Shown: one piece after another, positions 18,195-24,613 of the stretch
How the letters are laid out: each line of letters begins with the position of its first letter
Position numbering within the stretch: the stretch's first letter is position 1
DNA from: Nitrososphaerota archaeon
GTDB taxonomy: Archaea > Thermoproteota > Nitrososphaeria > Nitrososphaerales > Gagatemarchaeaceae
Assembly: GCA_029785825.1 (NCBI GenBank)
Contig: JAFLYY010000001.1
Coordinates: 1,023,374 to 1,087,373 of the forward strand
Direction: 5' to 3'
Length of the DNA: 64,000 bases
Program-made: the position numbers and the translations under genes
Notes under the pieces: generated by a model
What the model was told of the DNA's origin: nothing
Seen by the model: the letters and a program-made list of their open reading frames with translations, nothing else
The model's database searches: none

Positions 18195-19451
18195 ATGGAA
18201 GTGAAGGTACTGGGAGCCGCCAGGCAGGTCGGCCGCTCCGCGTTTCTCGTATCGCACAAGGACACAAAGATCCTGCTCGACTACGGGGCCATGACCACGA
18301 AGGTCCCGGGGTTCCCGATGCACGTCCCCCCGAAGGGGATCAAGGGGATAGTCCTTTCCCACGCCCACCTGGACCATTCGGGCGCGGCGCCTCTGCACTT
18401 CCTCGGGGGCGACATGAAGCTCCACGCGACCCCTGTGACGTCAGAGCTTTCGAACCTCCTGATCCAGGACTTCATCAAAATATCAGGGCAGTACCTGCCG
18501 TTCGAGTTCCTCGACCTGATGGCGATGAACTCCAACACGGTCAACCATGGCTACCTTGAGCCGTTCCAGGTCGGAGACTTCAACGTCCAGTTCTACGACG
18601 CCGGGCACATCCCGGGGTCGGCGGTCGTCGCGGTGGAGGCGGGGAACAAGCGCCTCATCTACACGGGGGACATCAACGGAGAGGAGACGAACCTCCTCGC
18701 GGGGTCCTGGAAGAACCTCGGCGAGGCCGACATGGTGATAACCGAGAGCACCTACGCCACCGCCGACCACCCCGGCAGGAAGAAGGCTGAGGCAGAGTTC
18801 GTCGACTTCGCCAACGCGGTGGTCGAGAGGGGAGGGATACTGCTCGTCCCGGCGTTCTCCGTTGGGAGGGCGCAGGAGGTGGCCATGACCCTGGTCAGGT
18901 CCGGGTTCAAGCACCCCATAGCCATGGACGGGATGGCCCTCAAGGTGAACGGGATACTGCTGAGATACCAAGAGTTCCTCCGTGACCCTGCGGCGCTCCG
19001 GAAGACGCTCGAGACGATACAGGAGGCGACCAGCTGGAGCCAGAGGCGGGGGCTTGTCAGGAGGCCCGGGGTCATCGTGTCGCCTGCGGGGATGCTTGTC
19101 GGGGGAGCTTCGATCTTCTACAACGAGCACCTTTCGATGGACGAGAAGAACGCCATCGCGATCGTGAGCTTCCAGGTGCCCGGGACACCGGGGAGGACGC
19201 TCATCGAGAAGGGGCTGACGATATACAGAGGGAAGCCGACCAAGGTGAAGGCAGAGGTGAGGCGCTTCGACTTCTCTTCGCACTCGGGGAGGTCGAGCCT
19301 GCTGAGCGACCTGAAGGGGGTCGGTGGGTCGCCGAAGTTCCTGACGGTGCACGGGGAGGAGGAGTCGTGCCTCGCCCTCGCCAAGGAGCTCCACGACGGG
19401 TTCGGAGCGGAAGCCACGGCGGCCATGCCCGGCCAAGAGTTCACAGTCTAG
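18195..19451 (+). CDS. Beta-CASP metallo-nuclease, aCPSF2-like
   Basis: 418 residues. A metallo-beta-lactamase fold with the zinc motif SHAHLDHSGAAPL (HxHxDH), later DAGHIPGSAVV, YTGDINGEET, and the beta-CASP motifs PAFSVGRAQEV, VSPAGML and SSHSGRSSL, ending with the VHGEEESCLALAKEL His motif. No N-terminal KH domains are present, which separates it from aCPSF1/FttA and places it with aCPSF2-type RNases, implicated in RNA 3'-end processing and 5'-3' decay. The N-terminal VLGAARQVGRSAFLV is typical. A TTAACTA-like box near 18150 would give a short 5' leader. Confidence 0.92.
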   Translation: MEVKVLGAARQVGRSAFLVSHKDTKILLDYGAMTTKVPGFPMHVPPKGIKGIVLSHAHLDHSGAAPLHFLGGDMKLHATPVTSELSNLLIQDFIKISGQYLPFEFLDLMAMNSNTVNHGYLEPFQVGDFNVQFYDAGHIPGSAVVAVEAGNKRLIYTGDINGEETNLLAGSWKNLGEADMVITESTYATADHPGRKKAEAEFVDFANAVVERGGILLVPAFSVGRAQEVAMTLVRSGFKHPIAMDGMALKVNGILLRYQEFLRDPAALRKTLETIQEATSWSQRRGLVRRPGVIVSPAGMLVGGASIFYNEHLSMDEKNAIAIVSFQVPGTPGRTLIEKGLTIYRGKPTKVKAEVRRFDFSSHSGRSSLLSDLKGVGGSPKFLTVHGEEESCLALAKELHDGFGAEATAAMPGQEFTV

Positions 19452-21504: not shown

Positions 21505-21512
21505 TGGATTAG
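21505..21512. repeat. Target-site duplication, left copy
   Basis: TGGATTAG flanks the left inverted repeat; the identical octamer flanks the right end at 24225-24232. An 8-bp duplication is the IS6 family hallmark. Confidence 0.9.
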
Positions 21513-21533
21513 GGTTCTGGGAAGTCCTCGGTT
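21513..21533 (+). repeat. Left terminal inverted repeat
   Basis: 21 bp, perfect inverted match to 24204-24224; starts GGTTCTGGG. Confidence 0.93.
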
Positions 21534-21600
21534 GTTGACGAAAAATCGGGGCCTTGGGAACTTTCGGTTGATGGGGCATGGCTAAATCAGACGAATTGGA

Positions 21601-22707
21601 ATGGTCAAGCAAGGGAACTTGGAAACGGCAAGAAAGCTAGAGACCAGACTGAAGCAAGAGAATTACAATCTTCGCCTTTGGATACTCACGCTCATGGGGG
21701 CAGTTCTGGAAAGTCTGATTCTTCTACCCGCCATTCCCGAAGTGCCGTCTTTCATTCAAGCGATTTTGCAGAACACAGGAATCACTCCTCCGCCATCACA
21801 ATGGGTCTACCTGATGCTTTACTACGCGATTCCAATCATATACAGTATTCCTGCATCTCTAGCATTCACACCGAAGCGTGTAGTGTCTCCGCTGAACATT
21901 CTCATGGGTGCAAGTTCGCTGTATTCGATATACCTCGCATCAAGCCTCGTTCAATCGTATCCCTACTTCTTAGTTTTCGAATATGGGGCGATAATTTGGC
22001 TACTATTCTTCGCCGTTGCTCTCATCGTGGGGATTCCGGAGGCTTGGCTGGTTAGATTGTTAGTAGGACTGAACGGAGACATGGATAGTCTGTCTATGGG
22101 AAGCAACCCTGCTCGTAAGACATACATTGTGCCCGTTCCCTTCCAGAAAGTAGTCGAGATAATCTTCAATCCGACAAATCTCGACGTTTGGGATATGCCT
22201 AAACCAAGGAGAAAGAAAAATGAAGTCATCCTGCAATCCTATTCAAGTTATGAGCATCAGAAATTGTTTATCGTTAGGCCCCATGACTCCGACAACACCA
22301 TTATTGCATCTGTAGCATTCGAGAAACGGTTCTATTCCATTTATCAGTCTGAAGTTGCTTCGAGGCGAAGGGATAGGTTAGTTCAGGACATCTACGACCA
22401 GTTGCACCTTCCGATGGAAGGGGTCGTCGGAACTGAAGACTCGGTATCTCTGAAGGCAGTTGAGAAGGTGCTATCTCCTACGCATTCGGTTTTCGCACCG
22501 ATAAGCGAGGCCTCCAAGTTCTTGCTGGGCATAGTCATTCTCACGGCCGTTCTCTTGGCCATCTCATCAGCCGAGTTCTTTATCCATCCGAACAATGGAT
22601 TCTGGGCCAGCTCGATACTCCTAATCGTGATTGCATTTGTCGTGGAACTCGCTCCATCCGTTAAGGAGTATCTCGAATCGAGGGCTGCCGAATCAGAAGA
22701 GGAGTAG
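21601..22707 (+). CDS. Membrane protein passenger of the IS6-like element
   Basis: 368 residues from ATG 21601. Helices at about 25-45 (LRLWILTLMGAVLESLILL), 70-90, 95-120 and 125-150 form an N-terminal membrane domain; a soluble region of about 150 residues follows (KTYIVPVPFQKVVEIIFNP, VILQSYSSYEHQKLFIVRPH, FEKRFYSIYQSEVASRRRDR), then two more helices (FLLGIVILTAVLLAISSAEF and SSILLIVIAFVVELAPSV) and an acidic tail. The soluble middle looks like an alpha/beta domain but no family is recognised. Its base composition is clearly lower in GC than the chromosome, so it travelled with the transposon. The stop (22707) lies 2 nt before the stop of the convergent RHH gene. Confidence 0.8.
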   Translation: MVKQGNLETARKLETRLKQENYNLRLWILTLMGAVLESLILLPAIPEVPSFIQAILQNTGITPPPSQWVYLMLYYAIPIIYSIPASLAFTPKRVVSPLNILMGASSLYSIYLASSLVQSYPYFLVFEYGAIIWLLFFAVALIVGIPEAWLVRLLVGLNGDMDSLSMGSNPARKTYIVPVPFQKVVEIIFNPTNLDVWDMPKPRRKKNEVILQSYSSYEHQKLFIVRPHDSDNTIIASVAFEKRFYSIYQSEVASRRRDRLVQDIYDQLHLPMEGVVGTEDSVSLKAVEKVLSPTHSVFAPISEASKFLLGIVILTAVLLAISSAEFFIHPNNGFWASSILLIVIAFVVELAPSVKEYLESRAAESEEE

Positions 22708-22709
22708 TC

Positions 22710-22850
22710 CTATTTGTTCTCTCTGACTTTGAAGTATTCCCCTAGCACAGACCTTATTGCCTCTGGGACTGTCTCCAACTTCCGCGCCTTTCGCTCTGTT
22801 TCGAGTGCCTTTAGCATTTCGTCAGAGACCGAGACCATGACTTTGTTCAT
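22710..22850 (-). CDS. 46-aa ribbon-helix-helix (CopG/Arc-type) protein inside the IS6-like element
   Basis: A small gene on the strand opposite the transposase: MNKVMVSVSDEMLKALETER, then KARKLETVPEAIRSVLGEYF and KVRENK. The beta strand NKVMVSVS, followed by the helix DEMLKALETERKARK and a second helix TVPEAIRSVLGEYFKV, is textbook RHH. Its start faces the transposase promoter region, where three GATACCAA boxes occur, so autoregulation and repression of the transposase genes is a straightforward inference. In length and layout it also resembles antitoxins. Convergent with the passenger gene (stops 2 nt apart). Confidence 0.8.
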   Translation of the reverse strand: MNKVMVSVSDEMLKALETERKARKLETVPEAIRSVLGEYFKVRENK

Positions 22851-22881
22851 TGCCAACCGAACTCACCCCCCATTACCATTA

Positions 22882-22933
22882 GATACCAATAGCAACCTTA
22901 ATATATCTTCCGTTGGATACCAATGGATACCAA
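22882..22933. promoter_or_regulatory. Putative RHH operator and transposase promoter
   Basis: GATACCAA occurs at 22882-22889, 22916-22923 and 22926-22933; the last two are exactly 10 bp apart and preceded by G. The block TTGGATACCAA is nearly palindromic. Between the first and second box is CTTAATATATC (about 22898-22908), a good TATA box about 30 nt before the ATG of the micro-ORF at 22934. Repeats flanking a TATA box between two divergent genes, one encoding an RHH protein, are the expected layout of an autoregulated operator. Confidence 0.6.
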
Positions 22934-23029
22934 ATGACTTCCGAACAAGCGCGGATGGAAATGGACGCCGACCAATACGCCGAGTTCGTTGCGTATCAGG
23001 AGTCCAGACGAGAGATGGAGTGGGACTGA
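22934..23029 (+). CDS. 31-aa micro-ORF coupled to the transposase
   Basis: ATG at 22934 encodes MTSEQARMEMDADQYAEFVA, YQESRREMEWD: a short acidic, helix-prone peptide. Its TGA stop overlaps the transposase ATG (TGATG at 23027-23031), so translation of the two is probably coupled. It lies directly downstream of the TATA box and the GATACCAA boxes. It could be a leader peptide or a small accessory protein. No homologue is recognised. Confidence 0.5.
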   Translation: MTSEQARMEMDADQYAEFVAYQESRREMEWD

Positions 23030-24204
23030 TGGACGTCCGCTCCAACCCCGACATCGAGTCAAGAAGGACGAGGGGGTTAGCGATAGCGAAGGCGGATGGT
23101 CAGGTAAGGCGGGTCTGGGACGGTCTCTATTTCATCCGTTCTCAGGCTCAGGATTCCGAAAGCGAGTATCAGGTTTCAAAGAACAGGTATGGTGAGTGGG
23201 CTTGCACCTGTCCAGACTACACCCACCGGAACCACCTGAAGTGCAAGCATGTGTGGGCCGTTGAGATTAGCATCCGAATCAGGCACACGGTGGACGGGAG
23301 CCGAGTGATTGCCGAGGTCTCGGTCTCCGAGTGCTACTTCTGCCACTCAAGGAATCTCAAGAAGTTCGGCATACGGAGGAACAAGTGCGGGGACATCCAG
23401 AGGTTCGTCTGCTCGGATTGCCACCGGACGTTCTCGGTGAACGTGGGGTTCGAGAGGATGAAGCACAACCCGAAGGCCATCACCACCGCGCTCCAACTCT
23501 ACTTTAGCGGGGAGTCGCTCCGCAACACCCAGAAGGCCCTACGCCTGTTGGGGGTCGAGATTAGCCACAAGACCGTCCTCAACTGGATTCGGAAGTATGT
23601 CGGGCTGATGGAGAAGTATCTCGACCAAATCACCCCCGACCTTGGAGAGACTTGGAGGGCGGACGAAGTCTTTGTCCGCGTGAAGGGGGACATGAAATAC
23701 CTGTTCGCCATGATGGACGACGACACCCGCTTCTGGATTGCACAGCAGATAGCGAACACGAAGTTCACGGCGGATGTAAGGCCCCTGTTCGCCCAAGCCA
23801 AAGAGCGGACGGGGAAGGTTCCCATGACCCTCATCACGGATGGGGGAAAGCACTTCATCAAGCCCTTCCGAAAGGAGTTCTGGGACAGGACGCTCTACAC
23901 CCACCATGTCAGGGACATCAGGATTGATGGGACTGTCCACAACAACAAGATGGAGCGCATGAACGGGGAGATACGCGACCGAGAGAAGACCTTCAGGAGT
24001 CTGAAGCGGATGGATACGCCCATCCTGAAGGGCCTTCAGATTTACCACAACTTCGTAAGGCCCCATGAGGCCCTGAAGGGCGAGACTCCGGCGGACAGGG
24101 CGGGAATCAAAGTCGAGGGGTCGGATAAGTGGCTGACGCTGATTCAGAACGCGAGCAAGGCCCCATCAACCGAGATTACACACGGAGAGGAAAAACTTGG
24201 ATAA
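23029..24204 (+). CDS. IS6-like DDE transposase with SWIM zinc finger
   Basis: 391 residues. The N-terminus carries a SWIM-type CxC...CxH motif (WACTCPDYTHRNHLKCKHVW, about residues 57-80), then a zinc ribbon CYFCHSRNLKKFG ... FVCSDCHRTFS. Next is the HTH/N-terminal transposase region (LYFSGESLRNTQKALRLLGV) and the RNase H-fold DDE core: Asp in WRADEVFVRVKGDMKYL (about 211), Asp in LITDGGKHFIKPF (about 269), Glu in NNKMERMNGEIRDREKTFR (about 309). The SWIM module in front of an IS6-like core is unusual. The ATG at 23029 overlaps the micro-ORF stop; the frame is open upstream but that part is antisense to the RHH gene. The TAA ends on the first base of the right inverted repeat. Confidence 0.92.
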   Translation: MDVRSNPDIESRRTRGLAIAKADGQVRRVWDGLYFIRSQAQDSESEYQVSKNRYGEWACTCPDYTHRNHLKCKHVWAVEISIRIRHTVDGSRVIAEVSVSECYFCHSRNLKKFGIRRNKCGDIQRFVCSDCHRTFSVNVGFERMKHNPKAITTALQLYFSGESLRNTQKALRLLGVEISHKTVLNWIRKYVGLMEKYLDQITPDLGETWRADEVFVRVKGDMKYLFAMMDDDTRFWIAQQIANTKFTADVRPLFAQAKERTGKVPMTLITDGGKHFIKPFRKEFWDRTLYTHHVRDIRIDGTVHNNKMERMNGEIRDREKTFRSLKRMDTPILKGLQIYHNFVRPHEALKGETPADRAGIKVEGSDKWLTLIQNASKAPSTEITHGEEKLG

Positions 24205-24224
24205 ACCGAGGACTTCCCAGAACC
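24204..24224 (-). repeat. Right terminal inverted repeat
   Basis: 21 bp, perfect inverted match to 21513-21533; ends CCCAGAACC. It begins at the last base of the transposase stop codon. Confidence 0.93.
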
Positions 24225-24232
24225 TGGATTAG
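24225..24232. repeat. Target-site duplication, right copy
   Basis: TGGATTAG, identical to 21505-21512. Confidence 0.9.
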
Positions 24233-24237
24233 TCAAG

Positions 24238-24245
24238 CTTAATAA
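24238..24245. promoter_or_regulatory. TATA box, possibly shared by divergent genes before the insertion
   Basis: CTTAATAA reads TTATTAAG on the other strand, so it can serve either direction. To the right it predicts a start of transcription near 24268, upstream of the TRAM gene's AGGATGTGA site. To the left, in the sequence without the transposon, it lies about 29 nt from the TTG at 21492. Confidence 0.5.
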
Positions 24246-24298: not shown

Positions 24299-24613
24299 AC
24301 GAGTTTCGGACGAGGAGGCTTCGGGCGAAGCAGCGGCGGAAGCGGCGGCTTCAGGTCCTTTAAGCCCAAGCCTGTTGAAGTAGGAAAGGAGTACGACGTG
24401 ACTATTTCCGAGATCAGCAGACGCGGTGACGGCATTGCGAAGATCGACGGTTTCGTTATCTTCGTGGCTGGCGCCAAGCAGGGCTGGCAGGGCAAGGTCA
24501 AGGTGTCCCAGGTAGCCAACAGGTTCGCCACGGCATCGGTCGTGGGCGGTTCTGAGGGCATGTCTGGTTCTGACAGCCAAGCCTCAAGCGACAGCGAAGA
24601 GCAAGGAGCGTAG
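24299..24613 (+). CDS. TRAM-domain RNA-binding protein (apparent ACG start)
   Basis: About 104 residues. After a Gly/Arg/Phe-rich N-terminus (SFGRGGFGRSSGGSGGFRSF) comes a TRAM domain: KPVEVGKEYDVTISEISRRG, DGIAKIDGFVIFVAGAKQGW, QGKVKVSQVANRFATASVV, then a Ser/Glu tail. Archaeal single-TRAM proteins are cold-shock-like RNA chaperones. The codon where related proteins start (M-S-F-G-R-G) is ACG at 24299; no ATG, GTG or TTG exists in frame between the upstream stop (24231) and GTG 24398, which would remove the first TRAM strands. AGGATGTGA sits 4-5 nt upstream of the ACG. Either a rare ACG start or a T-to-C change/assembly error. Confidence 0.75.
   Translation, partial: TSFGRGGFGRSSGGSGGFRSFKPKPVEVGKEYDVTISEISRRGDGIAKIDGFVIFVAGAKQGWQGKVKVSQVANRFATASVVGGSEGMSGSDSQASSDSEEQGA

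Follow-up and report, generated by a model that had tools for sequence, protein, structure and literature searches.

A cargo transposon with an IS6-like transposase lying upstream of a host TATA box in a Nitrososphaerota archaeon

The element and its transposase

We analyzed a 64,000-nucleotide stretch of a Nitrososphaerota archaeon genome (hereafter the window; GCA_029785825.1, contig JAFLYY010000001.1, positions 1,023,374 to 1,087,373), in which a 2712-bp transposon occupies positions 21513-24224. It is present as one copy in its 1.97-Mb genome. Between its ends lie four genes, encoding an orphan passenger protein, a small RHH regulator, a product of a very short open reading frame (ORF), here called the micro-ORF, and a transposase (Table 1). 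With a probability of about 0.7, we read it as a self-regulated cargo transposon with a modular interior, which inserts upstream of promoters and belongs to an archaeal group with IS6-like transposases.

Table 1. Features of the element and of the adjoining host DNA, in window coordinates.
Feature	Position	Strand	Basis or remark
Left copy of the target duplication TGGATTAG, 8 bp	21505..21512	.	sequence; single copy at the empty site in relative G025
Left terminal inverted repeat, GGTTCTG tip	21513..21533	+	100% complementary to 24204-24224
Imperfect subterminal repeat	21552..21583	+	78% complementary to 24154-24185
Orphan passenger, 368 aa, about 5 hydrophobic segments, soluble middle part	21601..22707	+	hydrophobicity; no family match
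RHH regulator, 46 aa, divergent from the micro-ORF and transposase gene	22710..22850	-	RHH_1 E = 0.002; homologues in relatives
Operator-like repeat GATACCAA, regulator side of the TATA box	22882..22889	+	sequence repeat
TATA box TTAATATA of the micro-ORF/transposase promoter, possibly bidirectional	22898..22905	+	sequence; layout conserved in RHH_A relatives
Tandem operator-like repeats GATACCAA at 22916 and 22926, between TATA box and micro-ORF	22916..22933	+	10 bp apart
Micro-ORF, 31 aa, acidic, predicted near-leaderless	22934..23029	+	ATG at 22934; stop overlaps transposase start as TGATG
Transposase, 391 aa: SWIM, zinc finger, DDE	23029..24204	+	profile matches; alignment of relatives
Right terminal inverted repeat, 21 bp	24204..24224	-	perfect complement of the left end
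Right copy of the target duplication TGGATTAG	24225..24232	.	sequence
Host TATA box CTTAATAA of the TRAM-domain gene, 5 nt past the duplication	24238..24245	+	targeted promoter
Host TRAM-domain gene, start uncertain (ORF from GTG; may begin upstream)	24398..24613	+	TRAM E = 6e-8

An earlier note, made from the sequence alone, had described perfect 21-bp inverted ends with a GGTTCTG tip and an 8-bp duplication, and both descriptions proved correct. The subterminal repeat is part of ends of about 50 bp that are conserved between relatives. A genome of the same genus, G025, has the uninterrupted sequence CTGGATTAGTCAAGC with a single copy of the 8 bp, and its match to the window (82% identity) is continuous over the junction. 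The ends and the duplication are not explained by chance: with shuffled flanks, none of 119 loci gave a pair reaching the score threshold. The element is thus a genuine transposon.

The intact DDE transposase fused to a SWIM zinc finger, also claimed in that note, was borne out by profile matches (SWIM, E = 2e-5; Pfam DDE_Tnp_IS240, E = 1e-11, 45.5 bits, above the cutoff of 27). The catalytic residues D212, D271 and E309, the SWIM ligands C59, C61, C72 and H74, and the zinc-finger ligands C102, C105, C128 and C131 are invariant in 10 relatives. The note had called the element an IS6 derivative. This holds for the DDE domain, which is IS6-like, about 25% identical to IS257 and not of the Mutator/IS256 type (15 bits with the IS256 model, 103 with that of IS6). 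Strict membership is doubtful, and we rejected it, because the score with NCBIfam transpos_IS6 (103.3 bits) is below the family cutoff of 125. The unity of the family is itself disputed, and Harmer and Hall argue for separating archaeal and long members from IS6 (PMC6807381). Sequence searches of the PDB gave nothing useful. In a structure model built from 10 sequences, the SWIM region was fair and the catalytic part poor (mean predicted local distance difference test score, pLDDT, 59).

Cargo and regulators in the archaeal group

Relatives of the transposase were found in Thaumarchaeota, Bathyarchaeia and other archaea. Within the order, 122 of 201 genomes had a match at E <= 0.001, many of them partial or distant; a match to the family alignment at E <= 1e-80 was recorded in 96 of 400 cases. 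Elements were delimited by GG-tipped repeats and an 8-bp duplication, giving 71 with that of the window included. The duplication was exact in 68, and three were retained with mismatches. From 42 further transposases, kept aside as a held-out set, 24 more elements were delimited. The 71 elements are 1855-6770 bp long (median 3200), each with at least 763 bp outside the transposase gene, and all 24 held-out elements fall at 2338-6803 bp. No bare insertion sequence (IS) was found among the 71 and 24 delimited elements, though the search would have accepted one. Two of the smallest, L155 and L162, have no ORF of at least 70 aa outside the transposase gene. The combination of SWIM domain, zinc finger and IS6-like DDE transposase defines a large archaeal group, which is widespread and apparently undescribed. 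Thaumarchaeota IS were earlier described as generally consisting of one or two genes (PMC6563490).

In a scan of viral contigs (IMG/VR), the alignment query found the transposase at four loci (L138, L139, L140 and L141), and a single transposase protein as query gave no match there. Since the transposase occurs on these contigs, viruses or plasmids may ferry the elements between hosts. Plasmid and phage records held only distant IS6-type matches.

As no delimited relative is bare, cargo is the rule in the group. It varies by element and includes DNA methylases, type I restriction-modification (R-M) genes, the restriction enzymes ThaI and Tsp45I, proteasome-like hydrolases, aspartyl proteases, PIN, NYN and NurA proteins, membrane proteins and many orphans. 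In the window, the AT-rich membrane protein reported earlier is indeed present; the passenger and RHH genes have 47% GC, against 64% for the window. The passenger matched no family in Pfam, NCBIfam or PADLOC, and in 200 genomes of the order it had short weak matches only and no full-length homologue. The structure prediction suggested in the note was run without an alignment, and this AlphaFold model reached a pLDDT of 43. The passenger is a cargo gene and, if the R-M and hydrolase cargo of relatives is a guide, may perhaps serve defence or competition.

The earlier note went further and saw a fixed four-gene archaeal IS6 derivative, with the membrane protein as a functional part of the element. 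All four genes do lie within intact ends. However, no relative carries the passenger, and the nearest elements, L068 and L071, keep the RHH gene, micro-ORF and transposase gene with different cargo. Relatives in general retain the ends and the transposase, whereas the passenger and even the regulator type differ, so a conserved design of the same four genes is highly unlikely. The opposite possibility named in the note, a one-off insertion of cargo into a bare IS, was also rejected, none of the delimited relatives being bare; it is the particular cargo that is one-off. What stands is a regulated, cargo-bearing, IS6-like archaeal element.

Some kinds of cargo recur. Proteasome-like Ntn-hydrolases of L082, L092, L104, L150 and L156 form a cluster of five elements, and Pfam Proteasome was matched by six cargo proteins. 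DNA methylase or R-M cargo was seen in L074, L075, L079, L104b (a 4.6-kb element with HsdM and HsdS), L146, L167, L169, L177 and L178, and retropepsin-like aspartyl proteases in L047, L200 and L147.

A regulator gene divergent from and adjacent to the transposase gene was found in 64 of the 71 elements and in 22 of the 24 held-out ones. These genes encode 45-75 aa and, typed by hidden Markov models (HMMs), fall into nine types: three RHH, four AbrB-like, a Zn-ribbon and one unassigned 70-aa protein. The antisense 46-aa RHH gene of the window, first noticed in the earlier note, was confirmed; its RHH_1 match is just under the Pfam cutoff and is backed by homologues at the same position in other elements. 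Between regulator and transposase gene lies a TATA box with repeats on both sides, and the sequence of these repeats tracks the regulator type. In the window, three copies of GATACCAA bracket the TATA box, and the composite operator-like site GGATACCAATGGATACCAA occurs once in the whole genome even when up to 3 mismatches are allowed. Across the group, all 6 AbrB3 elements contain TTAGGTACCTAA, which is absent from the 65 others. TATCTACGTAGATA is enriched with its regulator type, as are RGATACCAATRG and a TACGTA-centred palindrome with theirs, the last two being less exclusive than TTAGGTACCTAA. Because operators co-vary with regulator type, we infer that the RHH protein represses its own gene and the micro-ORF/transposase genes via the GATACCAA repeats. 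The suggestion that it throttles transposition can be kept to this extent: among candidates for a repressor of the transposase it is the best, and it would act in this way.

Two points detract from the operator evidence. With up to 2 mismatches, RGATACCAATRG is found in only 8 of 16 RHH_A elements, and also in 9 of 55 others. The motifs were first spotted by eye in the same data, so the evidence lies in the comparison across types, not in the discovery.

RHH and AbrB folds are typical of antitoxins, MazE_antitoxin matches were obtained, and many elements have the regulator as the leading gene of two whose ends overlap. Toxin-antitoxin pairs are also known in Tn3 transposons (PMC7157771). The regulators might then be antitoxins of toxin-antitoxin cargo, having no part in transposition. 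However, their position beside the transposase promoter is constant while the partner gene is not conserved, and type-specific repeats flank the transposase TATA box. In the window, the neighbour is the convergent passenger, which matches no toxin or PADLOC model. We rejected toxin-antitoxin function as the sole role of the RHH gene, and for the group we consider this explanation unlikely. Both roles are possible together.

The regulators are swapped readily. Regulator type requires 35 changes on the transposase tree, a count that used an earlier typing by regular expressions, which mis-typed a few elements. Close pairs such as L092/L094 and L142/L143, each within one genome, resemble each other in the transposase gene and in about 50 bp per end, and nowhere else. 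These comparisons show that regulator types are exchanged fast between close transposases, and the elements seem to be self-controlled by a small swappable repressor. As a side observation, L074 and L097 have a protein of about 310-400 aa with a predicted winged-helix segment at the vacant position of the small regulator, which it may replace. A rule that elements in one genome always have different regulators was rejected, because genome G010 has three RHH_A elements.

The 31-aa micro-ORF with its TGATG overlap, another feature of the earlier note, is conserved. An HMM found a protein of about 31 aa in 13 of the 71 elements, aligned from the same start Met, and L069 and L081 seem by sequence to carry a divergent form. 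In most cases its stop overlaps the transposase start or lies 0-5 nt before it (TGATG, TAATG, TGAATG, TGANATG). Where the micro-ORF is lacking, the transposase start occupies the position of the micro-ORF start. The ATG of the window micro-ORF is about 36 bp past the TATA box; given established archaeal spacing, the mRNA is therefore probably near-leaderless. Translational coupling is the likely role of the micro-ORF.

Insertion upstream of host promoters

The most unusual property of the element was omitted from the earlier note: it sits upstream of a host TATA box at a set spacing. Reading outward, 24 of 136 flanks have a TATA box whose first base is the 6th past the duplication, against 0.21 expected per position; these flanks represent 16 distinct sites and are divided equally between left and right. 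Chance spacing was rejected. Held-out flanks gave the same position in 4 of 45 (0.057 expected). Among 92 elements combined, 39 have a TATA box within 2 nt of it (control mean 1.2, maximum 6). Of the 92, 27 abut the end of another element at the duplication, an arrangement to be expected where later arrivals choose a site already used and so form tandem arrays. TATA box or abutment was seen in 53 of the 92.

The strict octamer sites lie upstream of genes in 12 of 16 cases, compared with 117 of 750 background octamers (16%; P = 2e-7); with radA counted once, the figure is 6 of 9 (P = 8e-4). The target genes are largely housekeeping (thermosome, TBP, TFB, RadA, RNA polymerase B and the ribosomal proteins L3, P1 and S15; further SufB, an aCPSF-like RNase, Gar1 and topoisomerase IB). 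The TRAM promoter was hit in two species, by the window element and, at the orthologous promoter in G109 and at the same distance, by L099, whose transposase is 52% identical and whose cargo and duplication are different. L142 and L146 lie at the same thermosome promoter, and the radA promoter is used in several species. The insertions are thus promoter-targeted, with fixed TATA spacing.

Several observations weaken this reading. The TATA rule was found after looking at the data; the held-out set confirms it, yet only 4 of its 45 flanks are strict, and two of those four are the same site. For 39 of the 92 elements neither a strict TATA box nor a neighbouring element was found, but looser TATA-like sequences occupy that position in several of them. 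Sites upstream of promoters could also be favoured by selection against harmful insertions, although such selection would hardly fix the spacing.

Selection of this kind is part of a further explanation, in which the transposase merely prefers an AT-rich motif and the promoter link is a by-product of this preference and of selection against insertions in genes. In its favour, the target profile is rich in A and T, the 3 nt preceding the TATA box among them; by the criterion applied, 633 of the 750 background TATA octamers do not precede a gene; and insertions that survive are filtered by selection. However, the excess of octamer sites before genes over the 16% background, and the largely housekeeping targets, some used repeatedly in different species, speak against it, and we regard it as rather less probable than promoter targeting. 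Sequence preference and guidance by a promoter complex can act together, and the two are only partly separable here.

For promoter targeting, the constant gap of 5 nt suggests recognition of promoter DNA, or of the TBP/TFB complex on it, by the transposase. As the duplication lies outside the TFB recognition element (BRE) and TATA box, 13 native bp upstream of the TATA box are kept; the host promoter should stay usable, and insertion should do little harm to the host.

Some further sites were noted. L221 and L259 (G562:C1, about 1779600-1789000) are neighbours at the radA promoter with identical 8-bp duplications (TGTTTCGA), which looks as if later arrivals used one and the same base and built an array. 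The window contains a beta-CASP/aCPSF-like RNase gene (18195-19451), and L079 and L103 lie at the promoter of its orthologue. L091, L173, L160, L237 and L229 share the target ATATACATAAATA before predicted secreted-protein genes of ammonia oxidisers.

Model and comparison with known systems

In the model that we propose, the SWIM-zinc-DDE transposase would recognize the ends of about 50 bp and join them directly upstream of BRE/TATA, resulting in the 8-bp duplication, while reading promoter DNA or bound TBP/TFB. The RHH protein, on the GATACCAA repeats around the TATA box, would repress its own gene and the micro-ORF/transposase operon. The transposase, as the second cistron, would be translated via coupling to the short leading ORF and so be kept low. 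Cargo and repressor-operator cassettes, judging by the comparison of elements, are exchanged while transposase and ends persist, which makes the interior modular. A more specific version, which we put forward tentatively and at somewhat less than even odds, is that the transposase binds to promoters already occupied by TBP/TFB and inserts the element on the upstream side of BRE, with the promoter still working, and that the cassettes diversify like phage immunity regions, letting elements share a host or, in tandem arrays, a promoter.

If true, archaeal transposons would solve the problem of a gene-dense genome by a fixed landing before TATA boxes, much as TnGBS uses bacterial promoters and Ty3 uses pol III genes. 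The steering of a DDE transposase by TBP/TFB would become directly testable, and Thaumarchaeota and Bathyarchaeia would have a mobile pool of R-M genes, proteasome-like hydrolases and orphan membrane proteins. The exchanged repressor-operator units would be a natural set for studying the evolution of promoter specificity, and an inserter of this kind could serve as an archaeal genetic tool. No archaeal counterpart with TATA spacing was found in the literature searched, the coverage of which was incomplete.

With IS6, the group shares the 8-bp target duplication, short perfect inverted repeats with a GG tip and G at position 7 (here GGTTCTG, 21 bp), and a related DDE domain with a zinc finger as in clade h. 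Unlike IS6, it has a SWIM domain preceding the zinc finger and ends of about 50 bp. Most IS6 elements contain only a transposase in about 0.7-0.9 kb, whereas this element has 2712 bp and its relatives 1855-6803 bp, and a regulator and cargo are normally present. The sole passenger-bearing member named in a review of IS6 is ISDsp3, and zinc fingers are placed there in one bacterial clade (PMC7986276). Replicative cointegrate formation is an IS6 trait; here, only a single copy with an intact duplication was seen. The group agrees with tIS (IS with passenger genes) in having one transposase, IS-type ends and unrelated passengers, and differs in its dedicated regulator-operator cassette, exchanged among elements.

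In temperate-phage immunity regions, a repressor and its operators are exchanged as a unit. The likeness lies in the swapping of a repressor and cognate operators between close relatives; here, in contrast, the carrier is a transposon with no lysogeny, and immunity to superinfection is only an analogy. Ty3 and similar retrotransposons integrate at pol III initiation sites, that is, beside a TBP-containing initiation complex at a fixed distance. Their element class is unrelated, and a role of TBP/TFB would be the corresponding part of our model. The Ty3-type analogy has been mentioned for promoter-targeting elements (PMC3942029). The closest likeness in insertion is to TnGBS, ISLre2 and ISKra4, some of them with cargo, which also insert at a fixed distance upstream of host promoters. 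Those elements use bacterial sigma-A promoters, 15-17 bp upstream, and a Mutator/IS256-type transposase (PMC3942029), whereas here 13 bp separate the element from an archaeal TATA box, which either end can face, and the transposase is IS6-like.

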